DNA of 64,000 nucleotides from Candidatus Sumerlaeota bacterium (GTDB lineage: Bacteria; Sumerlaeota; Sumerlaeia; MWCT01; JAUWMI01): the NCBI GenBank assembly GCA_030613245.1, contig JAUWMI010000001.1, forward strand, positions 1-64,000. Reading direction: 5' to 3'. Of the stretch, positions 9,238-43,437 are shown one piece after another (the stretch's first letter is position 1; the number at the start of each line of letters is the position of its first letter). The translations under genes were made by a program, and so were the position numbers. The notes under the pieces are model-generated. The model did no database searches. It was not told where the DNA came from and worked only from the letters and a program-made list of their open reading frames with translations.

Positions 9238-9265
9238 GTAGGGACAGATTATAATCTGTCCCTAC
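9238..9265. repeat. 28-base perfect palindrome with GTAGGGAC/GTCCCTAC ends
   Basis: Arms GTAGGGACAGATTA (9238-9251) and TAATCTGTCCCTAC (9252-9265) are exact reverse complements with no loop. It lies between the glycosyltransferase and the SAM-hydroxide adenosyltransferase. It belongs to the dispersed palindrome family described in the findings. Confidence 0.8.
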
Positions 9266-24965: not shown

Positions 24966-25496
24966 ATGCGACTAAGAGGAATATGCGCATTGGCGGTTCT
25001 TGTAGTCTGCTTGGCCTGGCTAGGTGGATGTGGGCCTCGGTTTTTGATCCCAACTTTCGATACGGCGCGTGATCAGTTGATGTTTGCCAGGGCACAAAAG
25101 CAGGATCAACTCCCAAGCACGAATCCGAAGATACGCAGCCGACAGTTGCGCTCAACTGTCCGGGCATTTGAGGAGGTTATTAAGCGGTTTCCCGATGATA
25201 TCGTTTATACCCCACCTGCCTATATTGGCATGGGGGAGGTATACTATACTTTTCATGAATATAAAGATGCTGTGAAAGTATACCGCACTGCTCTGAAGAA
25301 ATACCCTGACCAGGAGGACATCCAGCTATTCGCCCTGTATGGGCTGGCATTATCCCACGATCAACTGCGCAATTACGAAAAGGCACAGTCTTACTATAAA
25401 GAGTGTATTGACCGCTTTCGCGATGACGAGCGTGAGGAGGTTCAGAAGGTTATTCGCGAGTGCGAGGTTCTCTATCGTCGAGTCCGGACTGAATGA
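24966..25496 (+). CDS. TPR-containing lipoprotein
   Basis: 176 residues. A type II signal peptide ends in the lipobox LGGC (residue 22 is the lipidated Cys). Two to three TPR motifs follow: YTPPAYIGMGEVYYTFHEY..., IQLFALYGLALSHDQLRNYE... The size and layout recall small BamD-like or tol-pal-associated TPR lipoproteins, but the match is not specific. The DUF4139 pair follows at 25 bases, so all three probably share one transcript and work in the envelope. GGGGAGAG precedes the ATG. Confidence 0.8.
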   Translation: MRLRGICALAVLVVCLAWLGGCGPRFLIPTFDTARDQLMFARAQKQDQLPSTNPKIRSRQLRSTVRAFEEVIKRFPDDIVYTPPAYIGMGEVYYTFHEYKDAVKVYRTALKKYPDQEDIQLFALYGLALSHDQLRNYEKAQSYYKECIDRFRDDEREEVQKVIRECEVLYRRVRTE

Positions 25497-25521
25497 TCCT
25501 ATGGACAGAGGAGGTAGCAAT

Positions 25522-26823
25522 ATGAATCGAGCAATATCTATACTTGTGCGCCTCGGCATTATTCTCCTGATAATGATGCCTTTGTCTGCCAGTGCAAAAG
25601 TTGACCTGGTGACGATTCCGGGCCGCGACAGCGTGCAGATTACGATTTATAACAGTGAGGATTTGACCCTGGTGAAGGAACAACGCCAGATGACGTTCAA
25701 GAAAGGCTTGAACCAGATTCAATTTAGCTGGGCGGGAACCTTGATTGATCCCACCTCTCTTAACCTGGTGTTTAAAGAGCATCCTGAGCAGTTTCAAATT
25801 CTCGACATAACCTATCCAGCGCATACAGCAAATGTCTTGATCTGGAATGTTGAGTCCAGCTACTCGGGGCTGGTGCCCATTGAGATCACCTATTTTACTA
25901 GCGGGCTCACGTGGAGTGCAGACTATGTTGTGCGTGCGAATCCTGAGGAAACTATCATGCGATTGGAGGGGTACGTTAGGGTAACAAACCGTAGCGGTGA
26001 GGATTATGAGAACACGCAGACGCGGCTGTTGGTGGGCGAGATTCATCTGGTCGAGAAGATTGCAGATCTTGCACGAGCGGGTGTGATGGAGATGAAAGAG
26101 CGCGTCTTTCGGGCCGTGTTAGCCAAGGCCGAAGTTAGCGACGAGTTAGCTCTGGGTATGCGGCGGCCAAAGGAGATTATCAAAGAGGGGATTTCCGAGT
26201 ATTTTCTCTATACCATAGAAGGGCGCGAAACTATACGGAATGAATGGGCAAAGCGACTTCCATCGCTTGCAGTGGATGATATTCCTTTTGCACTGACGTA
26301 CGAGTATGACGATGCGAAGTATGGTTCGAATGTGGTGAAGTTCTACAAGTTGAAGAATGATGAGAAGGCGCATCTGGGTAAAGAACCCCTGCCCGATGGT
26401 GTGTTTCAAGTGTTTAAATCCGACGGGAGCGGCGGTCTAACATACATTAATAGGTACCAGAGCAAGTACATCCCTGTTGGCGAAGACATTGAGCTGAATC
26501 TCGGCCCAGATGGGCTGATTACGGTTGAGTCCAAGCGCATGAACTTTCAGCGCAAGAAGATTGTATACGACTCGTATAGAAATGTCCGCGGGTGGGATAT
26601 AATAGAAGAGTGGAAAATTGAGATGCGTAATTCGAAGTCGGAGGACGTACCTCTGGAGCTTACCCGCCATTTTCAGGGTGACTGGGAAATCGAGTCCCCA
26701 GAAAACTTCGAGCGCAAGGATAAGAATACGATTCAGTACAAGGTTGTGGTTCCGGCACTGGGAACACGGGTAATTAAGTATACGGTAACCACGCATCACG
26801 GACTTAGGTCAAAACAAAGCTGA
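25522..26823 (+). CDS. Secreted DUF4139-family protein, copy 1
   Basis: 433 residues from the ATG at 25522, which follows GAGGAGGT; the frame is open further upstream inside the preceding gene. The signal peptide is cleaved after SASA. The mature part is all-beta in pattern: an N-terminal domain (VDLVTIPGRDSVQITIYN...), then the DUF4139 core with TWSADYVVRA and VTNRSGEDYENTQTRLLVG, and a C-terminal domain typical of the family (VELT..EWKIEMRNSKSEDVPLEL). DUF4139 proteins have no defined biochemical role that I know of. It forms a tandem with the next gene, sharing layout and motifs. Confidence 0.78.
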   Translation: MNRAISILVRLGIILLIMMPLSASAKVDLVTIPGRDSVQITIYNSEDLTLVKEQRQMTFKKGLNQIQFSWAGTLIDPTSLNLVFKEHPEQFQILDITYPAHTANVLIWNVESSYSGLVPIEITYFTSGLTWSADYVVRANPEETIMRLEGYVRVTNRSGEDYENTQTRLLVGEIHLVEKIADLARAGVMEMKERVFRAVLAKAEVSDELALGMRRPKEIIKEGISEYFLYTIEGRETIRNEWAKRLPSLAVDDIPFALTYEYDDAKYGSNVVKFYKLKNDEKAHLGKEPLPDGVFQVFKSDGSGGLTYINRYQSKYIPVGEDIELNLGPDGLITVESKRMNFQRKKIVYDSYRNVRGWDIIEEWKIEMRNSKSEDVPLELTRHFQGDWEIESPENFERKDKNTIQYKVVVPALGTRVIKYTVTTHHGLRSKQS

Positions 26824-26906
26824 AGAGATAAATAAAGTAGGGAGCACATTGAGAGCATTCGTAATGTGCAATGATGCGGATGATCGAGGAGAAAGGAGCA
26901 AGAACC

Positions 26907-28025
26907 ATGAGACGTATAAGCGGAGTGCTGATTATTCTGGCTGTTGTCTTACTGGTAATGCCTTACAGCGTATCGGCGCGCGTTAAGCTGGTAACATTGC
27001 CAGATCGCGATGTTATCGGGATCGCGCTGGATAATCCTAATTATACGCTGGTGACTGAAGAGCGAGTCATCACGTTGCAGTCGGGCATCAACAAAATTGA
27101 TTTTTCCTGGCAAGGGGTCAGCATTGATCCGTCATCAATTCAATTCGAAATCCTCTCGCATAAAGATACGGTCAAAATGCTGAACGTGAGTTATCCGCCG
27201 AACGAGAATGCGCTGGTGTGGGAGGTCTACAGCCCACAGGCAATGGAAGAACGCATTCGGATATACTATCTGATGGGCGGGTTTGGCCGGGTGGTTTCAT
27301 ACCGTGCAGTGACGGATCAGGAGGAGAAGCAGGCGATTCTGGAGTCGTATTTCAGACTGAGCAACCGGAGCGGCGAGGATTTCACCAACGCCGGGATTCG
27401 CGTAGGCTACGGCGCAGAGTGGCAGAAAAATTTGAAAAATGGCGAGACGCGCGAGATGCTATCGTTCCAGAATCCCTCATTGCCAGTGAATAAGGTCTAC
27501 ATCTACAAGCCAGCGGTTGATGACAAAAAGGTGCCGATGTATTATGAGGTACGTAATGAGATAGAGAGTGGTCTGGGACAGTTCAAGCTGCCGGGAGGAA
27601 AGGTGCGGATTTTTCAGCGCGACAGTTCAGGCGCCACAATTTTTATCGGTGAGGACTGGATGAAGGATACGCCCGTTAAGGAGAAGAGCGAGCTATATCT
27701 GGGTGTGGCGCGTGACGTGGTGGTCAAACGCAGCATCATGAGCGATAAGCGCGACCGCGTTGTGCGCAATAGCAATAAAAACGTCGTGCTGTTCGACCGG
27801 ATTGTGAACATTCAGTACGAGATTGAAAACTTCAAAAAGGAACCCGTAACGCTGAAGATTGTTGAAACTGTGCCGGACTACTGGAAGATTGAAGAGCTGG
27901 CAGGGCCAAGCGTGCGCCACGAGAAGAAAGATTCAGAAACGCTTGAGATTTTTGTCGATCTCCCGCCAAAAGGCGAAAAGCAGGTAGTAAATTTCGTCTA
28001 TAAACAGATTAACCAATTGCCGTGA
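26907..28025 (+). CDS. Secreted DUF4139-family protein, copy 2
   Basis: 372 residues from the ATG at 26907, preceded by AAAGGAG. The signal peptide ends at SVSA. It parallels copy 1 block by block: VKLVTLPDRDVIGIALDNPNYTLV against VDLVTIPGRDSVQITIYNSEDLTLV, and RLSNRSGEDFTNAGIRVGYG against RVTNRSGEDYENTQTRLLVG. It is about 60 residues shorter, lacking part of the middle of copy 1. The final motif of the family is present near the C-terminus (YEIENFKKEPVTLKIVET). A GTAGGGGC-family palindrome begins 4 bases after the stop. Confidence 0.78.
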   Translation: MRRISGVLIILAVVLLVMPYSVSARVKLVTLPDRDVIGIALDNPNYTLVTEERVITLQSGINKIDFSWQGVSIDPSSIQFEILSHKDTVKMLNVSYPPNENALVWEVYSPQAMEERIRIYYLMGGFGRVVSYRAVTDQEEKQAILESYFRLSNRSGEDFTNAGIRVGYGAEWQKNLKNGETREMLSFQNPSLPVNKVYIYKPAVDDKKVPMYYEVRNEIESGLGQFKLPGGKVRIFQRDSSGATIFIGEDWMKDTPVKEKSELYLGVARDVVVKRSIMSDKRDRVVRNSNKNVVLFDRIVNIQYEIENFKKEPVTLKIVETVPDYWKIEELAGPSVRHEKKDSETLEIFVDLPPKGEKQVVNFVYKQINQLP

Positions 28026-28029
28026 TACT

Positions 28030-28056
28030 ATGGGCAACCACAAGGGTTGCCCCTAC
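28030..28056. repeat. Palindrome after DUF4139 copy 2
   Basis: GGGCAACC and GGTTGCCC pair across ACAAG; the distal side continues as CCCCTAC. It sits between two convergent genes and could help terminate both transcripts. Confidence 0.7.
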
Positions 28057-28081
28057 GTCTGTTATCGTGGTGGCTGAGCGG

Positions 28082-29137
28082 TCAGACCTCTTCCCGGCTC
28101 GCTGGTTGATACAGGCAGAAGGGTTCCTCATCCAGGAAATCGGCTGTGGCAGCGAAGGCACGTGCGCGGCACCCCATGCAGACTCGCCGATATTCACACC
28201 GTCCACATTTTCCCTTTAGAAGATTCGGATCGCGGAGTTTACGGAATACTTCAGCATTCTGCCAGATTTCAGCGAATGGTTGAGTCTTGATATTACCGGC
28301 TGAGATGGGTAGATAGCCACACGGGAAGACTTCGCCCTGGTGTGAAATAAAACAGACGCCGGAACCTGCCAGACAGCCACGTGAACTGGCTTCCATGCCG
28401 GCGGCCTGCAATGTCAAGCGTTCGCCTTTGGCGCGCTGACGTATGATCCGTTGGTAATGCGGAGCGCAGGTAACCTTGGTATGTATGGTACTGCGCTTCG
28501 AAAGATCGTAGAAATGATTCAAGACGCGTTCGTATTGCTCGGCAGAGAGCATCTGGTCGTCGGCGATCTCGACGCCGCAGCCTACTGGAACCAGCATAAA
28601 GATGTGAAAAGCATCTGCTCCTACGGTCTCGGCCAGATTGAAAAGCGCCTCGAGCTGCTTAACATTGTGACGGGCAATTGTGGCATTGATCTGGACACTG
28701 ATGCCGTACTCTTTCAAATGGCGAATCCCTTGAAGCGCCTGGTCGAACGAACCAGGAATCTTGCGAAATGCGTCGTGCGTTTTGTCATCGGCACCATCAA
28801 TGCTGATGGAGACTCGGCTGATGCCTGAATCCTTAATCTCGCGAACCACAGCCCGGGTAATCAGTGTGCCGTTGGTGGCCAGTGCAGTGGCCAACCCGCT
28901 TTGTCGGGCATGCAGTGCAAGCAGAAAAATATCAGGCCGCATGAGCGGTTCTCCGCCACTCAGCACCAGTATGGGTTTGGCGAACTCAGCTATGGAGCTA
29001 ATTAAAGCGCGTCCCTCTTCAGTAGTAAGATCGGATTTCGATAATTCCTTGCTGACTTCGAGGCGTCGGCAGTGGACACACTCAAGGTTACAGCCAACTG
29101 TGGTTTCCCAGAAGATAATACGCAAGCTTTCTTGCAC
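28082..29137 (-). CDS. ahbD: AhbD-like radical SAM/SPASM enzyme (Fe-coproporphyrin decarboxylase type)
   Basis: 351 residues from the GTG at 29137, with GGAGAG about 8 bases upstream; the frame extends to 29266 but the preceding 43 residues are unlike the family. The radical SAM cluster motif is TVGCNLECVHC (CxxxCxxC) at about 12-19, then GGEPL and SISIDG. The rear SPASM-like part has TCAPHYQRI, RGCLAGSGVCFISH, GEVFPCGYLP and GKCGRCEYRRVCMGC, which match my recollection of AhbD, the enzyme converting Fe-coproporphyrin III to haem b in the siroheme-dependent pathway. NirJ-type enzymes are the nearest alternatives. This fits the multihaem cytochromes in the window. No other ahb gene is adjacent. 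Confidence 0.72.
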   Translation of the reverse strand: MQESLRIIFWETTVGCNLECVHCRRLEVSKELSKSDLTTEEGRALISSIAEFAKPILVLSGGEPLMRPDIFLLALHARQSGLATALATNGTLITRAVVREIKDSGISRVSISIDGADDKTHDAFRKIPGSFDQALQGIRHLKEYGISVQINATIARHNVKQLEALFNLAETVGADAFHIFMLVPVGCGVEIADDQMLSAEQYERVLNHFYDLSKRSTIHTKVTCAPHYQRIIRQRAKGERLTLQAAGMEASSRGCLAGSGVCFISHQGEVFPCGYLPISAGNIKTQPFAEIWQNAEVFRKLRDPNLLKGKCGRCEYRRVCMGCRARAFAATADFLDEEPFCLYQPASREEV

Positions 29138-29619
29138 GGGTGGCTCTCTCCGATTAAAAAAAATCGCTCCATAAAGTGTCTGTGGAGAACTTGCTTCTTC
29201 ATACCGCAAGGTTTCATAAAGCACAAGAGGAAAGAGGGGAGAGGAAGCTACAAGGGTGCACATCATTTTTATTCATAGTAGTTATTCCGGGAAAATAGAA
29301 GATACGTACATTTCCGCTTCGTTCTGTTAGTGGTAATCCTAGTTTTTTTTGCTGTACTTCACGCAAAGGCGCAGAGACGCAAAGAAAAGATCGGTTTAAG
29401 ATTACACAATTTACCAGAATTTCTTGGCAACTTGGTGGCTTTTCGTAGGGGTTTGATTAATCAAATTCCTGCCAAATCTGTGGACTAAACTGATGTGCAC
29501 CCCATTTCAGGTAGTAAAAAGGAAAGGCAATCCCCTCACCTTTATCCTCTCGCCTAAGGCGAGAGGATATAATAAGCTACGTAGGGGCTCAAAATTTTGA
29601 GCCCCTACAGCTCATTCGA
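29138..29619. repeat. Intergenic region with three repeat types
   Basis: First, a direct-repeat-like tract ACGCAAAGGCGCAGAGACGC (29361-29380) built on CGCAAAG/CGCAGAG units. Second, CCCCTCACC followed by an 11-bp stem ATCCTCTCGCC / GGCGAGAGGAT with loop TAA (29533-29568). Third, a perfect 28-base palindrome, arms GTAGGGGCTCAAAA and TTTTGAGCCCCTAC (29581-29608), 11 bases beyond the mlaD stop. No gene is seen. Confidence 0.75.
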
Positions 29620-30717
29620 TTACATGAGTGATCCGAAGATAATGCCGACAAAGGTTCGGATAATAGTTTGTTCTTCTGTTGCTTCCAGGGTCTGCTTCAA
29701 TTTGTTCATTGTCTCGCGGGTGTCGTCGTACAATGCCGTATCGTAGACCAATTTGCCCAGTGTTCCCTCGCCACTCTTGACCTTGTTTGAAATCTCCAGC
29801 AGATTGTTCAGGGCATCGTTGAGTTTCGGCACGCTGGCCTGCATAGAGTCAATTGTCGAGCGAAGATTATCTTTATTTTCGCGGATCACCGTATTGAGCT
29901 CAGCGGTTGCCGTGTTGATGTTGTCAAAGACCTCTTCGAATGAGGCATGCAAATCATCAGTGTAAATGAGGCGGCTGAGGGTGCCTTCGCCTTCACGCAC
30001 CTCAATGGTAATATCCTCAATATTAGAGGCGACTTCGAGAAGGATGTTATACGCTTCATCGTCCTTGATAAGCTTGCCGAGGCTGCCTTTGCCTTCATTA
30101 AGCGACTGAATGATCTCCTGAGCGGTATCAAGAACGGATTGCAATTCTGGTGCGGATTTAGCCAATGCATCTGAGGTAGTTTTGATATTTTCGCGGTTTT
30201 CAGCAATAACCTCAGAGAGATCGCCAAAGACGCGGCGCTGATTCTCATCAAAGGAAGTAAGAAGGCGATTGGCATTGTCTTCAATCTCATTGACTTTCTC
30301 GAGCACCTTGTTGAGATCAGCAATTTCGTAAGGATCCAGGGTCGAGCCCTCAGCAAGCAGTGGGCTGTCGGGAGGACCGTATTTGATATTAATGTAATAC
30401 TGCCCGAGGAGACTTTTCATTATCACGGCGGCTTTGGAGCCCTCGTTAATTCGATAGTTGGGATTGATCAGCATGGCTACCTTCACGGTCGCCGTTTTTG
30501 GCTCGAAGTTAATGGCCGTTACTTTGCCCATCTCCACGCCCGCAAGCGTCACTGGAGAGCCGATTTCCAGGCCGTTAACCTGGTCGAAATTGGCGTAGAG
30601 TTTGTACCCTCCCTTGACCAGCACCCCTTTGGTTCTGATAGACAGGCCGATCAAGAGAATCAAACCCAGCACGAAAAAGATTCCCACACGCACAGCAATA
30701 CTTTTTGTCGAATTCAT
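29620..30717 (-). CDS. mlaD: MCE-domain lipid-binding protein, MlaD-type
   Basis: 365 residues from the ATG at 30717, preceded by AAAGGAG at 8 bases. One N-terminal transmembrane anchor (VGIFFVLGLILLIGLSI), then one MCE domain (about 38-125; FDQVNGLEIGSPVTLAGVEMG). A long helical tail with coiled-coil-like heptads follows (residues 130-355) and contains the family pattern EGTLGKLIYD, seen twice here (EGTLSRLIYTDDLH and EGTLGKLVYDTALY). This is longer than E. coli MlaD and closer to the PqiB/YebT or deltaproteobacterial type with a periplasmic helical bundle. It would shuttle phospholipid between membranes together with the permease and ATPase encoded just upstream. Confidence 0.9.
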   Translation of the reverse strand: MNSTKSIAVRVGIFFVLGLILLIGLSIRTKGVLVKGGYKLYANFDQVNGLEIGSPVTLAGVEMGKVTAINFEPKTATVKVAMLINPNYRINEGSKAAVIMKSLLGQYYINIKYGPPDSPLLAEGSTLDPYEIADLNKVLEKVNEIEDNANRLLTSFDENQRRVFGDLSEVIAENRENIKTTSDALAKSAPELQSVLDTAQEIIQSLNEGKGSLGKLIKDDEAYNILLEVASNIEDITIEVREGEGTLSRLIYTDDLHASFEEVFDNINTATAELNTVIRENKDNLRSTIDSMQASVPKLNDALNNLLEISNKVKSGEGTLGKLVYDTALYDDTRETMNKLKQTLEATEEQTIIRTFVGIIFGSLM

Positions 30718-30749
30718 TTGCACCACTCCTTTTTGATCGCGAAATGAGC

Positions 30750-30777
30750 GTAGAGGCGTTCAATTGAACGCCCCTAC
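30750..30777. repeat. 28-base palindrome between mlaF and mlaD
   Basis: Arms GTAGAGGCGTTCAA (30750-30763) and TTGAACGCCCCTAC (30764-30777) pair with one mismatch. The last base is shared with the mlaF stop codon. Confidence 0.8.
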
Positions 30778-31502
30778 TATTTTCGTTTAATGAAGTCGTG
30801 AATAATCGGTTCGTGTGATTCGCGAAATTCCGCTGGCGACCCAGAGGCGACGATCTTCCCGTCGTGAAGCATATTCACCATATGAGCTAATTTAAACGCG
30901 CTGATCATATCATGTGTTACTATCACGGAAGTCACGCCAAACTGTTGATTCAGATTCAGGATTAGGGAGTCAATATTTTCCGCCATTGGGGGATCTAATC
31001 CAGCTGTGGGCTCGTCGTAGAGAATAACCCGAGGATTCAAGGTAAGGGCACGCGCAATAGATACGCGCTTTTTCATCCCCCCGCTCAGGTTGGCCGGCAT
31101 TTCGTTTTCCTTGTCAGCAAGATTCACCAGGGCCAGCTTCTCATGAACAATTTGAGATATCTGGTCGGGTGGTACAAGGCGATGTTCTCGTAGCCCCAGG
31201 GCCACGTTCTCACCAACGGTCAATGAGTTCAGCAGGCCCCCGGTCTGGAAGATCATCCCGAATTGCCTTCGTACAGGGTAAAGAGCAAGTTCTGAAAGCT
31301 TTGTAATGTCCTGACCATTAACCAGGATGGCTCCTGCATCGGGAGGCAGAAGGCCAATGAGAAGCTTCAAGAGAACGCTTTTTCCGCTGCCGCTTCCTCC
31401 GATAATGACAGTAATCTTGCCTTCTCTGATCTCCAGATTTAGGCCGCGGAGCACATGGTTGTCTTTGAAGCTCTTGACCAGGTTTGTGGCTGTAATATCC
31501 AT
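30777..31502 (-). CDS. mlaF: ABC transporter ATP-binding protein, MlaF-type
   Basis: 241 residues, a single ABC ATPase domain: Walker A GGSGSGKSVLLK (about 35-46), Q-loop in MIFQTGGLLNSLTV, signature LSGGMKKRVSIARAL, Walker B VILYDEPTAGLDP and a switch His in VIVTHD. The Q-loop context (FQTGGLLNSLTV) is typical of MlaF/MkI lipid importers. Gene order permease, ATPase, MCE protein on one strand supports the assignment. It energises phospholipid movement between inner and outer membranes. Confidence 0.92.
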   Translation of the reverse strand: MDITATNLVKSFKDNHVLRGLNLEIREGKITVIIGGSGSGKSVLLKLLIGLLPPDAGAILVNGQDITKLSELALYPVRRQFGMIFQTGGLLNSLTVGENVALGLREHRLVPPDQISQIVHEKLALVNLADKENEMPANLSGGMKKRVSIARALTLNPRVILYDEPTAGLDPPMAENIDSLILNLNQQFGVTSVIVTHDMISAFKLAHMVNMLHDGKIVASGSPAEFRESHEPIIHDFIKRK

Positions 31503-31518
31503 GTAACGTTCAGGTGGT

Positions 31519-31546
31519 ATAAGGGCGAGCCGGCGGTTCGCCCTAC
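31519..31546. repeat. Palindrome between mlaE and mlaF
   Basis: GGGCGAGCC (31523-31531) pairs with GGTTCGCCC (31535-31543) with one mismatch, ending CTAC 3 bases from the mlaE stop. Third intercistronic palindrome of the mla operon. Confidence 0.7.
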
Positions 31547-31549
31547 GCC

Positions 31550-32341
31550 TTATCCAGCAAACCGGCTCATGAAGTAGTCGGCGACCAGGATCATGGTGAG
31601 GGAGATGACGATAGCTCGTGTTGTTGCTTTTCCCACGCCAGCGGCGCCATTTTCAGCCGACATGCCCATATAGCAGCATACGATAGAGTAAATCGCCCCA
31701 AAGATGAGTGTCTTGGAGAGACCCTTGGTAATGTCGCTCAGTTCAAGAGCTCGATAGAGCTGGTTGTAGTAGATCACTCGGTCAATTCCCAGATAGGTTG
31801 ATGAGATAAGGCCGCCGCCCCAGATGCCAATCACGATGGCGTAGATAGTGAGTATGGGCTGCATGATGACCGAAGCGAGAAAGCGAGGCATTACAAGATA
31901 GCGAACGGGATTGATGCCCATAGCTCGCAGCGCGTGAATTTCTTCTGATACGGCCATAGTGCCCAGTTCAGCTGCCATCCCCGCACCAACTCGGCCTGCA
32001 ATGATAAAGGCCGTTATCACTGGCCCCATTTCGCGTACCAGTGAAAGGCCTACGATGCCGCCAATGACCTGCTGAATGCTTAGCTTTTTCAGCTCAATGC
32101 CGGTTTGCAGGGCTACTATCATACCTGTAAACAGGCCGATCATGGCAGCAAGGGGAAGCGTGTTGTAGCCAATTTCAAACATCTGCCTCAGCACGCGGTT
32201 GGAATTTCGGAAAGCGTAGCGTAGTTGGCCGATACTCTGGGAAAAGAGGAGAACCATCTGGCCTGAAGTATAGAAGAGGCTGGTGAAGAATGTTTCAATT
32301 CTGGAGAGCAGTATCGTGACAGATCGCATCCGTGGCACCAT
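31550..32341 (-). CDS. mlaE: MlaE-type ABC permease
   Basis: 263 residues, five to six transmembrane segments, with the permease signature of the MlaE family: GLFTGMIVALQTG, VREMGPVITAFIIAGRVGAGMAAELGTM and EEIHALRAMGINPVRYLVMPR. The EAxxxMG-like cytoplasmic helix contacting the ATPase is complete. It is the first gene of the mlaE-mlaF-mlaD unit and lies 99 bases after purA, so it could be read from the purA promoter. Confidence 0.92.
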   Translation of the reverse strand: MVPRMRSVTILLSRIETFFTSLFYTSGQMVLLFSQSIGQLRYAFRNSNRVLRQMFEIGYNTLPLAAMIGLFTGMIVALQTGIELKKLSIQQVIGGIVGLSLVREMGPVITAFIIAGRVGAGMAAELGTMAVSEEIHALRAMGINPVRYLVMPRFLASVIMQPILTIYAIVIGIWGGGLISSTYLGIDRVIYYNQLYRALELSDITKGLSKTLIFGAIYSIVCCYMGMSAENGAAGVGKATTRAIVISLTMILVADYFMSRFAG

Positions 32342-32440
32342 TGCTTTATCTTTGGGTCAAGGTTACCATGAGGTCAGCTCTGACCCGACACCTGAATGCG
32401 CTGAGCTTTCATAACACCGTGCACCGATAATTTACGCGCG

Positions 32441-33730
32441 TTAAAAAAAGTGGTCAATAAGTGTAATACACTTTCCGCGCTTGGGGCTGACCGAAACGGT
32501 GATAACCTTTGCCGAGATAAGTTCCTCAATTTTGTGCAGGTACGCTTTGGCCTTCTCAGGCAATGCGTCGAAATCGGTGATATCCTCAGTACAGGTCTTC
32601 CACCCGGGCAGCTCCTCGTAGATCGGCTCGTAATTATCATCGGCATCAATGCCGAAAGGAAAGATATCAACCGTCCTGCCATTACAGCGATAGGCCGTGC
32701 AGACGTTGATAGTGTCCAGTGTGTCAAGGACATCTAGTTTGGTGATGGCCACTTCGCGGGTGCCTGAGATCTGGATTGCGCGCCGGACCAGGGGGGCATC
32801 AAACCAGCCGCAACGCCGTGGCCGGCCCGTTGTGGCACCGTACTCGCTGCCGAGCTTGCGCAGATTGTCGCCCTGCTCCATGGTCAGCTCAGTAGGGAAA
32901 GGGCCTTCACCCACACGGGTGGTATAGGCCTTGACCACGCCGAAGATGCGGTCAATCTTTGTGGGGCTGATGCCCAGACCCGTACATACCCCTCCGGGGG
33001 AGGGATTTGAAGAGGTCACGTAAGGATAGGTGCCAAAGTCAATATCAAGGTGAATGCCCTGGGCTCCTTCGCACATGATATTCTTGCCTTGCTCAATATA
33101 CTGGTTAATGACACTCACCCCATCAACAGCCAGGCTGTTAAACATATCGGCATATTTCCAGACTCGCTGAATAATATCGTCGGCAGCAAAGCTATTGGTG
33201 CTATAAATTTGCTCGAACAGAGGCTTATAGAATTCAAGATTTGCCTGTACTTTTTTTACAAAGCGATCCTTGTTGCGCAGGTCAAGCACTCGTATACCCT
33301 GACGGGTTACTTTGTCGCCGTAGGAACAGCCAATGCCTCGGCCAGTAGTCCCGATTTTCCCTTTGCCACGCTTTTTCTCCTGCACGAGGTCGAGAAGCTT
33401 GTGGTAAGGCATCACGAGATGGGCTGTTTCGCTGATCATCAAATTGGTGTCCACTGCAATGCCGTGTTGCTCGAGCTCTTTGATCTCTTTGGAGAAAGCT
33501 TCAGGATCAATGACCATGCCGTTGCCAAGGAGACACTTGGTTTCTGGATGGAGGATACCCGTGGGAATCGTATGAAGAATGAAGGTAGCGTCGTCAATAA
33601 CGACCGTATGCCCTGCGTTATTACCACCCTGATAGCGAGCAACGAGATCGGCTTCCTTGGCGATCAGATCAACAATCTTACCTTTCCCTTCATCTCCCCA
33701 CTGGCAGCCGAGAAGAACGATGAGTGGCAC
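32441..33730 (-). CDS. purA: Adenylosuccinate synthetase
   Basis: 429 residues, full length. GTP-binding loop GDEGKGK (12-18) with catalytic Asp13 and His41 in NNAGHT at the positions seen in E. coli PurA. Further blocks: GTTGRGIG, the switch region, GATTGRPRRCGWFD and TKLDVLD. It condenses IMP and aspartate to adenylosuccinate at the expense of GTP, the first step to AMP. The start is GTG, chosen because AAAGGAGG lies 6 bases upstream. It has its own promoter and lies downstream of serA on the same strand. Confidence 0.97.
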   Translation of the reverse strand: MPLIVLLGCQWGDEGKGKIVDLIAKEADLVARYQGGNNAGHTVVIDDATFILHTIPTGILHPETKCLLGNGMVIDPEAFSKEIKELEQHGIAVDTNLMISETAHLVMPYHKLLDLVQEKKRGKGKIGTTGRGIGCSYGDKVTRQGIRVLDLRNKDRFVKKVQANLEFYKPLFEQIYSTNSFAADDIIQRVWKYADMFNSLAVDGVSVINQYIEQGKNIMCEGAQGIHLDIDFGTYPYVTSSNPSPGGVCTGLGISPTKIDRIFGVVKAYTTRVGEGPFPTELTMEQGDNLRKLGSEYGATTGRPRRCGWFDAPLVRRAIQISGTREVAITKLDVLDTLDTINVCTAYRCNGRTVDIFPFGIDADDNYEPIYEELPGWKTCTEDITDFDALPEKAKAYLHKIEELISAKVITVSVSPKRGKCITLIDHFF

Positions 33731-33756
33731 GAAGATCCTCCTTTGATTTTTTGCAA

Positions 33757-33785
33757 GCTATAATGTTTTAAACGTTGTCCTTCAA
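33757..33785 (-). promoter_or_regulatory. Probable purA promoter
   Basis: TTGAAG (33785-33780), 17 bases, TATAGC (33762-33757) on the minus strand. It gives a short leader ending in AAAGGAGG before the GTG start. In the same 256-base gap, ATGCCAC (33888-33894) and GTGGCAT (33937-33943) form a loose inverted repeat beyond the serA stop. Confidence 0.55.
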
Positions 33786-33986
33786 GTCAGGCGTCATTTG
33801 AAGGGTCTATAGAGAAAGGACTGAAAATGCAACTAAAAACAAGCTCGGGAATTTGCGATTATATACAGAAGAGAAGCACAAATAAAAATGCCACGGAGGA
33901 AAAGTGCCGTGACATATCCTCTCCTTATCGTTTACTGTGGCATTAAAGGTTTTAAGTGACCAGAGCGCAGTTTCTGCTGTTTTAAT

Positions 33987-35576
33987 TCATATCTTTATCA
34001 TCTTTGCAGATTTGATATTGGGAAGCTTGCCGATTTTCTCCAGAATTTTTGGAGAGACATCTTCGTCAACATTGATCACGGTCATGGCATCCTGACTGTG
34101 GTCAGTACGGCCCCACGTGAGCTGGCCGATATTGATCCGATGCTCACCCAACAAGGTGCCAACACTTCCGATGATTCCCGGGACATCATTGTTTTCAATC
34201 ACAATCAAGATGCCTTCAGGGGTAGCGTCGAAGTGCTTGTCATTGATAATTACAATCCGCGGGGTTGTGGGTGCGAATAGCGTGCCGCTGACACTGTTTA
34301 TCTTGCCATTTTCCATCTGTGCTTCGACAGTTATCAAGTTGGTGTACTGATACTGGGTAGTTGTCTTACTCTCAACTACCTCCAAGCCTCGTTCTTGCGC
34401 GTAAGACATGGCATTGACGTAGTTAACTGTGCTGTCGGAAATCGGTTCAAGAAATCCTTTAACCACAGCAGTTGTGAGTGGTGCAACGGGATAATCGAGC
34501 ACTGCGCCGCTATATTTCACTGTAATTTTTGTGACGCGAGAATCAGCGAACTGGGTCTGGAATTTGCCAATACGCTCCGCCAGGTTCAGATACGGGCGCA
34601 GCTGTTGCAAAATCTCAGGATCAATGGAGGGGGCATTGACGGCGTTTCGGATTTCACGTCCCTTGAGGACGTCAACTACTTGCCTGGCAATCTCGATTGC
34701 AACATTGTGCTGTGCCTCGGTTGTGGAAGCAGCCAGATGAGGTGTTAGAACAAAGCGGTCGGATTTACGAAAGGGATGGTCTGACGGCAGCGGCTCGGCT
34801 TCGTAGACGTCCAGAGCCGCTCCGGCTATGGTGCCTTGCTCAACTGCCTCGATGAGTGCGGCTTCGTCAATGATGCCGCCGCGGGCACAATTGATCACAC
34901 ACGCTACCTTTTTCATCTTCTGGAATTGCTCCCGGCCTATGATTCCCTTTGTCTCGGGTTTTAACGGTGTGTGAACCGTAATGAAGTCAGCAATCTGAAC
35001 AAGCTGCTCCAGGGGAAGCATCTCCACGCCGATTTTCAACATAACCTCTGGCGAAATATAAGGATCGTGACCAATTACGCGCATGCCAAAGCTCTGGCAG
35101 CGCTTGGCCACCTCAATACCTATACGCCCCAGTCCGATAATGCCCAGCACCTTGCCGAGCAGCTCGATGCCAGTGAACATCTTTTTGTCCCACCGACCCT
35201 CCTGCATTGAGTGGTGCGCTTTGGGAATGCTGCGCGCCAGGGCGAGGAGCATACTCATGGTGTGCTCGGCAGTAGAGATGGTATTGCCTCCGGGCGTATT
35301 CATGGCAATGATGCCCATTTTCGTCGCTGTGTTGACATCCACGTTGTCCAGCCCGACTCCGGCGCGGCCAATTACCTTCAAATTCCGGGCATTTTTCAGT
35401 ACGTCGCCTGTAATCTTACTCCTGCTTCGCACCACAACTGCATCGTAATCGCCGATGCGGCGTAGCAGGTCTTCCGGGGTGATGCTAGGTTCATAGTCAA
35501 CCTTAAACGCCCCGTCAGCTTCCAGGATTGCGAGCCCATCCTGGGACAAAGAATCGCTTACGAGTATCCGTGTCAT
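33987..35576 (-). CDS. serA: D-3-phosphoglycerate dehydrogenase
   Basis: 529 residues from the ATG at 35576, which has AAGGAG 10 bases upstream; the other ATG at 35585 leaves only one base. Substrate-binding and NAD-binding domains (GLGRIGIEVAKR loop), catalytic Arg in NCARGGI, Glu in EAEPL and His in LTPHLAAST are present. The allosteric-substrate-binding domain and C-terminal ACT domain (IVIENNDVPGIIGSVG) mark the long type I SerA, usually serine-inhibited. It oxidises 3-phosphoglycerate to phosphohydroxypyruvate. The aminotransferase gene immediately upstream probably takes the next step. Confidence 0.96.
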   Translation of the reverse strand: MTRILVSDSLSQDGLAILEADGAFKVDYEPSITPEDLLRRIGDYDAVVVRSRSKITGDVLKNARNLKVIGRAGVGLDNVDVNTATKMGIIAMNTPGGNTISTAEHTMSMLLALARSIPKAHHSMQEGRWDKKMFTGIELLGKVLGIIGLGRIGIEVAKRCQSFGMRVIGHDPYISPEVMLKIGVEMLPLEQLVQIADFITVHTPLKPETKGIIGREQFQKMKKVACVINCARGGIIDEAALIEAVEQGTIAGAALDVYEAEPLPSDHPFRKSDRFVLTPHLAASTTEAQHNVAIEIARQVVDVLKGREIRNAVNAPSIDPEILQQLRPYLNLAERIGKFQTQFADSRVTKITVKYSGAVLDYPVAPLTTAVVKGFLEPISDSTVNYVNAMSYAQERGLEVVESKTTTQYQYTNLITVEAQMENGKINSVSGTLFAPTTPRIVIINDKHFDATPEGILIVIENNDVPGIIGSVGTLLGEHRINIGQLTWGRTDHSQDAMTVINVDEDVSPKILEKIGKLPNIKSAKMIKI

Positions 35577-35690
35577 TTTTTTCATACTCCTTTTTTGGAA
35601 GAGATGCTTGTATCTTTAAAGGTAACTGAAAGGGGCATATAAAATCCAGAAATATTTCTGGCCCATTAACCAGGCGGGATGCCCAGCCGC

Positions 35691-36827
35691 CTAGCTGGTT
35701 TCGAAAACTTCCAATGCTGCCTTGAGCCCCGAGCCCAGCTTTACGGGATGGCCCAAGCGTTTCAATGTCAGCTCAAGCGCAGAGAGTACGGTTGTGACGT
35801 CAAAGGTATCAGCGTAACCGAGGGCGGCGATGCGGAAGATTTTGCCCTTCAGTTTTGCCTGCCCCCCCGCAATGGTGATGCCGTAATCATCACGCATAAT
35901 TTTTGGAATCTTGGCTCCGTCAATTCCTTCAGGAACCTTAACGGCAGTGACCACGTTTGCACGGTCTTTGGCAAACAGTTCGAGACCGAGGGCATGAATG
36001 CCGCTACGTATTGCACGGGCGAGCCGCTCATGGCGTGCCCAGATCTGCTCAAGGCCCTCCTTGCGGATCAGCTCAAGCGCCTGATCAAGTGCCAAAGTCA
36101 GCGAGACCGCCGGTGTGAACGGCGTTGTGTTCTTTTCCAGGTTTTTCAGATACTTGGACAGGGAGAAATAGTATTTCGAACATTTCGAACTCTGGAGGAG
36201 CGTTCTGGCTTTGGTGCTTATTGAGGCGAAAGCCATACCCGGAGGCATCATGAGCGCCTTTTGCGAGCCTGACACTACAATATCCAGCTTCCATTCGTCA
36301 CTGTAGAGCATCTCAGCCCCCAGACTGCTGATTGCGTCAACTACCAAGACAGCGTCGCTACTCGCCACCACCTGGCCAATATTCTTAATGTCGGTCAGTA
36401 CCCCGGTTGATGTTTCGCAATGCGTAATAAAGACCGCCTTGACGTCAGGATGCTCTCGAAGTAGTTTTTCGATTCTCTCAGGTTTAATAGCATGCCCCCA
36501 TTCCATCTGAACGGGGATAGCATTCGCGCCGTAAGCCTGGGCGATTTCTGTCCAGCGTTCTCCGAACTTTCCACCTTCGACCGTGAGGGCTTTATCTCCC
36601 GGGCTCAGGATACTAACAACGGCGGCTTCCATGGCGCCAGTGCCTGACGAAGCAAAGCTAACAACGGGCTTGGTGGTTTGAAAAACATATTGAAGACCTT
36701 CGTTTGTCCGTGTGAAAAGTGGTTCGTATTCTGGGGCGCGGTGATGGATCATTGGCCGAGAACCCGCTTGAAGAACCTCAGGAGGAACACTTGTTGGGCC
36801 TGGCGTAAGGAGGTATCTTTTTTTCAT
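35691..36827 (-). CDS. Class V aminotransferase (alanine-glyoxylate / serine-pyruvate family)
   Basis: 378 residues from the ATG at 36827 (MKKRYLLTPGPTSVP), with CAGGAG about 10 bases upstream; the longer frame to 36920 adds non-homologous residues. Family marks: LTPGPTSVPP, the PLP phosphate loop SSGTGAMEA, VVDAISSLG, and the PLP Lys in SGSQKALMMPPG. Its linkage to serA (gap 114 bases) suggests it makes phosphoserine or otherwise serves serine/glycine metabolism; no SerC-type gene is present. Direct alanine:glyoxylate activity is the alternative. A hairpin AACCAG...CTGGTT spans its stop codon and a perfect 16-base palindrome CCAGAAATATTTCTGG (35646-35661) follows. Confidence 0.87.
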   Translation of the reverse strand: MKKRYLLTPGPTSVPPEVLQAGSRPMIHHRAPEYEPLFTRTNEGLQYVFQTTKPVVSFASSGTGAMEAAVVSILSPGDKALTVEGGKFGERWTEIAQAYGANAIPVQMEWGHAIKPERIEKLLREHPDVKAVFITHCETSTGVLTDIKNIGQVVASSDAVLVVDAISSLGAEMLYSDEWKLDIVVSGSQKALMMPPGMAFASISTKARTLLQSSKCSKYYFSLSKYLKNLEKNTTPFTPAVSLTLALDQALELIRKEGLEQIWARHERLARAIRSGIHALGLELFAKDRANVVTAVKVPEGIDGAKIPKIMRDDYGITIAGGQAKLKGKIFRIAALGYADTFDVTTVLSALELTLKRLGHPVKLGSGLKAALEVFETS

Positions 36828-41687: not shown

Positions 41688-42042
41688 CTCGCGGGCTTTC
41701 GCGTCGCGCAACTCTTATTCACCCCCTCCCTTCCCTCCCCCATCGAGGGGGAGGGGATAAAACAAATGGCTCTTTAATCAGATAGGTTAGCAAACTAGTG
41801 ATCGAAACAGATGGTAAGTAGAGATTCTTGAGCTTTTTGTAGATACGGTTGCGTCAATAACAATTTGTTCTTATAGCCCCTCACCCCATCCCTCTCCTCG
41901 ATGGTGAGAGGATCAAGGTGAGGGGATTATCTTTCCTCAAACAATGCTAACTTATTTGACAAAGAGCCGAAAAAATATAGGGGTTCATCCGCCGCGGCGG
42001 ATGAGCCCCTACGTGGCAATGAAATTAAATCCCATTGGCCTC
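41688..42042. repeat. Intergenic region packed with inverted repeats
   Basis: No gene. CCCTCCCCC and GGGGGAGGG flank ATCGA (41733-41755). A second element has outer arms CCCCTCACC (41877-41885) and GGTGAGGGG (41917-41925) around an ATCCCTCTCC...GAGAGGAT stem; it matches the element at 29533-29568. A GTAGGGGC-family palindrome (41978-42012) has arms AGGGGTTCATCCGCC and GGCGGATGAGCCCCT with one mismatch, 30 bases beyond the following gene's stop. Confidence 0.75.
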
Positions 42043-43323: not shown

Positions 43324-43437
43324 ATGGGGCAGACACGCAGGTCTGCCCCTACGCCATGCACCATTTCACCACTACTGCATTAATACGCTTAATGGCGCGT
43401 AGAATAGCTGTGTAGGGGCGAACCTATGTGTTCGCCC
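43324..43437. repeat. Two GTAGGGGC-family palindromes between sugar genes
   Basis: GGGGCAGAC / GTCTGCCCC with loop ACGCAG, continuing into CTAC (43326-43352), and GGGCGAAC / GTTCGCCC followed by TTTTT (43416-43440). The second ends about 10 bases from the stop of the next minus-strand gene. Its T-run lies on the plus-strand side. Confidence 0.7.

Follow-up and report, generated by a model that had tools for sequence, protein, structure and literature searches.

The three palindromes found behind the genes of an mlaE-mlaF-mlaD operon are very probably REPs of the GTAG class, that is, hairpins likely spread by RAYT enzymes and inserted independently of one another near stop codons, where the harm would be small. 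Copies are present elsewhere in the genome and absent from the mla loci of relatives and from the other mla locus that this genome contains, which leads to GTAG-class REPs of three core types that arrived as independent insertions. Furthermore, the cores differ among the three mla sites, which argues for three separate insertions rather than a duplication.

The operon occupies the minus strand of the window (the whole stretch of 64,000 nucleotides that was analysed), running from 32341 down to 29620, with gaps of 47 nt between mlaE and mlaF and 50 nt between mlaF and mlaD, the gene starts being approximate (Table 1). A palindrome after each of the three genes had been noted, and the arms were recovered independently, with chance excluded by shuffles. 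Six palindromes of such strength were observed versus 0-2 per 64 kb in Markov-shuffled windows, and the pattern GTAGGGGC-N4-30-GCCCCTAC occurred 0 times in 100 shuffles. The predicted arms stand at sites 1 and 2, whereas good pairing at site 3 is confined to 31522-31544 (11+11, 91%), with the outer ATA.../...TAC unpaired. The same division applies to the GTAG...CTAC-like ends expected at each site: sites 1 and 2 have them in full, whereas site 3 retains a GTAG on one side (5´ end, mRNA sense). Site 2 contains one inner mismatch (GTAGAGGC/GCCCCTAC). The distances of 3 and 11 nt from the stop codons of mlaE and mlaD were reproduced, and the remaining distance, noted as 0, is -1 at mlaF, the third base of its TAG stop being the first G of the repeat's GTAG. 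This element lies after the mlaF stop and before the Shine-Dalgarno region of mlaD. Finally, each site does carry a different core, and the three represent core subtypes of one repeat family; differing cores combined with GTAG ends are the signature of a dispersed REP family.

Table 1. Genes of the mla operon and tagged palindromes located in the window
Feature	Position	Strand	Details
mlaE-like permease gene	31550..32341	-	PF02405, E 1.5e-75; stop at 31550-31552
mlaF-like ABC ATPase gene	30777..31502	-	PF00005, E 1.3e-34; stop TAG at 30777-30779
mlaD-like gene	29620..30726	-	PF02470, E 1.8e-19; stop at 29620-29622
REP copy 1 (site 1), GTAGGGGC-TCAAAATTTTGA-GCCCCTAC	29581..29608	-	14+14 arms, 100% complementary; 11 nt past mlaD stop
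REP copy 2 (site 2), mRNA sense GTAGGGGC-GTTCAATTGAAC-GCCTCTAC	30750..30777	-	14+14 arms, 93%; -1 relative to mlaF stop
REP copy 3 (site 3), degenerate, mRNA sense GTAG-GGCGAACCGCCGGCTCGCCC-TTAT	31519..31546	-	single GTAG tag; 3 nt past mlaE stop
GTAG-tagged REP GTAGGGGCAACCCTTGTGGTTGCCC	28032..28056	-	next gap; right after stop of + strand ORF 26871-28025
REP variant GTAGGGACAGATTATAATCTGTCCCTAC	9238..9265	.	6 copies in sampled genome stretches
Longer hairpin of this kind with GTAG tag	41980..42012	-	
Two GTAG-tagged REPs	43326..43437	.	opposite orientation, GTAG ends face to face

The copy statistics of the family come from sampled stretches and from whole-genome pattern counts. The whole 4.29-Mb genome contains 101 exact GTAGGGGC-N8-24-GCCCCTAC palindromes of 27-29 bp, compared with 0 for a reversed-pattern control. 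Core types include GTTTAATTAAAC, AATTCATGAATT, GTATTGCAATAC, AGGTTTCAAACCT, ACGCYGCRGCGT and TCAAAATTTTGA, among others. The last of these, the core of site 1, is present at three genomic sites, with identical copies at C36:34321 and C55:2953. A perfect copy of the site 2 core (GTTCAATTGAAC) lies at C92:39735, and the site 3 core is of the GGGCGAYCCGSCGGRTCGCCC / GGGCGAYCCGSCGG type, with 18 genomic sites at up to one mismatch.

Altogether, 36 different cores were distinguished, and 94% of the core pairs are Watson-Crick. For 12-base cores, the pairing reaches 95% versus 42% once the right halves are re-dealt among the cores, so that hairpin pairing has been kept while the sequence changes. 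The unit stops precisely at GTAG and CTAC: immediately beyond them, pairing is near chance (0.22-0.32 per position) and the flanks are A/T-rich; a unit longer than 28 bp was rejected because these flanks are unpaired. The family unit comprises 28-29 bp, either as GTAGGGGC-core-GCCCCTAC or with the tag on one side, and this short repeat is probably mobile. In the sample, 148 strand-counted (about 74) symmetric elements with GTAG paired to CTAC were found versus 81 one-sided ones. An unbiased 400-kb sample yielded 21 elements with a tagged-hairpin detector that includes one-sided tags, and its shuffles yielded 0. No relevant paper was retrieved from the literature with the repeat's exact end sequence.

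Copies of the repeat are mostly extragenic; tandem and convergent gaps hold the majority, and the 3´ ends of genes are favoured. Their placement was analysed with a simple hexamer gene caller over 0.63 Mb of sampled stretches, most of them chosen around repeat matches, allowing up to two end mismatches (n = 142): 70 elements are tandem, 34 convergent and 18 divergent, with 7 inside called genes and 13 at edges. A distance of 15 nt or less from the stop was observed for 19 of the 104 elements with a neighbouring 3´ end, compared with 8% when elements are placed at random within these gaps, while divergent gaps hold fewer copies than under random placement (15% versus 25%). The repeat's GTAG supplies the TAG stop of the neighbouring gene in four listed cases (offset -4), and the one-base stop overlap seen at mlaF has one further counterpart. 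In the unbiased 400-kb sample, 6 of 29 convergent, 4 of 171 tandem and 2 of 30 divergent gaps are occupied, together with none of the 70 tandem gaps of up to 80 nt; 2 of the 21 elements lie inside called genes. The position of REPs just behind stops may be explained by the little harm that an insertion would cause there, beyond the coding sequence yet ahead of the next ribosome-binding site.

The comparison with relatives was made within the same order, not the same genus, these being the closest genomes compared. Their mla operons share the gene order of this genome, with mlaE-mlaF gaps of 18, 27, 16 and 1 nt and mlaF-mlaD gaps of 22, 24, 70 and 26 nt. In this genome, the corresponding gaps resolve into 47 = 19 + 28 and 50 = 22 + 28, with one 28-bp unit each; they thus fit the relatives' ordinary gaps plus 28 bp, and the units look like pure additions, placed after the stop and ahead of the following gene's ribosome-binding site. 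No comparable palindrome was found in the mla gaps of the four same-order genomes (G001-G004) or of more distant loci, and no such repeat at the second mla locus that the present genome has (C87, L047). Exact repeat copies number 0 in the four same-order genomes and are present in 3 of 40 relatives, with one or two in each. The MlaE relatives retrieved by a scan of named genomes are all distant (48% identity or less). A regulatory element specific to mla was also considered and rejected, being kept neither in the relatives' mla operons nor at the second mla locus.

Copies in distant bacteria suggest that the distribution of the repeat is wide and patchy. Palindromes with GTAGGGGC/GCCCCTAC ends were seen in the distant bacteria G040 and G006, with the cores of G040 as in this genome, and a palindrome with these ends and another core lies at 2043-2070 of a locus (L075) from a Planctomycetota MAG. 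As a separate observation, the mlaE-mlaF gap of one relative (G022, L035) measures 206 nt and contains a long inverted repeat of the ACAGGATTTACAAGATGAACAAGATT type, an unrelated palindromic repeat.

Regarding the enzymes that might mobilize the family, IS200-like Y1 genes are present in the genome. Two of them exceed the cut-off of 80 bits for NF047646 (REP_Tyr_transpos) and are RAYT-family genes (L001, 92.6 bits; L002, 95.4 bits), and further transposase copies are decayed. A cluster on contig C50 (L003, G000:C50 1414-2762) consists of two tandem RAYT-like genes that score 70.8 and 41.9 bits, below the cut-off. These genes carry palindromes of the GTATTGCAATAC type at their 5´ ends; one of them has another palindrome within its reading frame, where it encodes GVLQYAP, and the second gene harbours two tagged hairpins in inverted orientation. 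One hairpin of this pair is identical in sequence to the window's element at 28032-28056. Linkage to a RAYT-like gene, itself under the curated cut-off, is thus seen for one core type (GTATTGCAATAC); no intact RAYT was found next to any core type represented at the mla sites.

The RAYT enzymes studied bind the GTAG-tagged hairpin in single-stranded form and cleave it at CT, GTAG being the probable guide (PMC8266576). RAYT-type (IS200-like, Y1) transposases would most likely spread the REPs of this genome in the same way, as single-stranded hairpins, with each of the three mla copies inserted independently. We infer that RAYTs moved these REPs and that the REPs have no mla-specific role. As in REPtrons and the TnpA-REP (RAYT) systems (PMC8266576, PMC2817692), genes matching NF047646 are present and one cluster adjoins palindromes of the GTATTGCAATAC type. 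Unlike REPtrons, however, the linked gene falls below the NF047646 cut-off and has the repeat inside it, others are decayed, and a pairing of core type with transposase exists for one type at most.

The elements themselves are high-copy palindromes in the range of 20-40 bp with GTAG at the end, matching the description of the GTAG REP super-family as dispersed palindromes of that length with a terminal GTAG (Di Nocera et al. 2013, PMC3733652). In that super-family, the repeats often supply a TAG stop (PMC3733652), as several do here. Other shared features are several core types per genome, the location in tandem and convergent gaps near stops, and the occurrence of singletons and inverted pairs (PMC3733652). 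The published GTAG is unpaired and found at one end, whereas the commonest exact form in this genome pairs GTAG with CTAC in a unit of 28 bp; one-sided tags, as published, account for about as many copies as symmetric ones. The original prediction had likened the palindromes to REPs, and the likeness turned out to be more literal than was meant, the mla palindromes being dispersed GTAG-class REPs themselves.

The filling of three consecutive gaps in one operon exceeds the expectation from average occupancy and speaks against independent insertion; similarly, the five palindromic insertions within 3.5 kb at 28032-31546 exceed the expectation from average density. REPs are often clustered (PMC3733652). 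The three mla palindromes are ordinary copies of their family, mildly unusual just in filling three neighbouring gaps.

In its symmetric form, the unit has GTAG and the complementary CTAC on both strands, and this symmetry may aid mobility. A tentative and on balance doubtful extension holds that the GTAG guide and the CT cut site are both available on either strand of such a unit, in a family whose many exchangeable cores share identical 8-bp ends. One transposase lineage would then read mainly the ends and the hairpin, tolerating many cores. If this is true, symmetric units could integrate in both orientations and accumulate inside one operon. The identical GTAGGGGC/GCCCCTAC ends combined with 36 paired cores also offer a natural set of variants for questions on RAYT recognition.

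In E. coli, the REP between malE and malF forms a hairpin between cistrons, and its role at the RNA level has been measured. The mla elements are likewise hairpin REPs between the cistrons of an operon, although they are not kept in relatives. The predicted RNA hairpins are strong at sites 1 and 2 (-25.5 and -21.1 kcal/mol, respectively; z about -7), while the fold of site 3 is weak and little better than its shuffles (z -1.65). By analogy, a side effect on the mRNA in mla, either 3´-end protection or ribosome stalling, is possible, be it incidental or co-opted. Nothing suggests selection for such an effect in mla, given the lack of conservation, the second locus without such repeats and the stop proximity imposed by the short gaps at sites 2 and 3.

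Stalling of terminating ribosomes by hairpins within 15 nt of the stop, lowering the translation of each gene, is an unlikely explanation of the arrangement. Such stalling has been reported for REPs in E. coli, and the stop distances at the mla sites (11, -1 and 3 nt) are under the reported limit of 16 nt (PMC12306157). However, the rule is reported in E. coli only and site 3 is weakly structured. Moreover, the proximity to the stop at sites 2 and 3 is forced by gap size, because a 28-nt unit in a gap of 47-50 nt reaches at most about 20 nt from it.

The reading closest to the original prediction, in which the hairpins act as 3´-end barriers to exonucleases and set the relative stability of the mla cistrons like the E. 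coli malE REP, is quite improbable. According to a published report (PMC12306157), REP hairpins shield mRNA against degradation, and the strong hairpins predicted at sites 1 and 2 could serve in this manner. However, the palindromes are absent from the relatives' mla operons and the second mla locus, the same elements stand behind unrelated genes everywhere, and site 3 is degenerate; together, these observations indicate that no conserved device of mla operons is involved. The claim that REPs set 3´-end stability for each cistron as a property of the operon was accordingly not upheld, the elements lying behind unrelated genes genome-wide. Two observations made together, palindromes lacking in relatives' mla operons and expression ratios unchanged, had been named as speaking against that claim, and the former, one half of the pair, is what the same-order genomes display. 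Knowledge of the dispersed family thus guards against mistaking the mla palindromes for operon-specific regulation.

Intrinsic terminators or attenuators between the cistrons are highly improbable: the strong hairpins of sites 1 and 2 do stand at gene ends, but no T-run follows 3´ on the mRNA strand, the sole terminator-like match at the sites is on the opposite strand (30755-30772), and the region holds three such matches versus 3.8 in shuffles. Binding sites for a regulator, or a structured regulatory RNA family, are barely credible despite the perfect symmetry of site 1 and the near symmetry of site 2, with wholly different cores between sites, an Rfam scan of 25000-36000 that gave no match up to E 1, and the rarity of copies in divergent (promoter) gaps noted above.

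Returning to the GTAG-class REPs and their surroundings, just five palindromes exceed the score threshold in 27000-33000: the three mla sites, the element at 28032-28056 and a palindrome at 29543-29569 (TATCCTCTCGCCTAAGGCGAGAGGATA), which adjoins REP copy 1. The last two are additional to those in the original prediction. The palindrome at 29543-29569 is a relative of another dispersed family of palindromes, CCTCTCCCCTNAGGGGAGAGG, with six further sites at two mismatches. An imperfect inverted repeat that starts with ACGCAAAGGCGCAGAGACGCAAAG lies at 29361-29446, between mlaD and a radical SAM gene, and may represent a third kind of dispersed repeat. Elsewhere in the genome, a dense cluster of GTAG-tagged hairpins was observed within 1 kb (L146 3037-4030, G000:C51), with two core types alternating.
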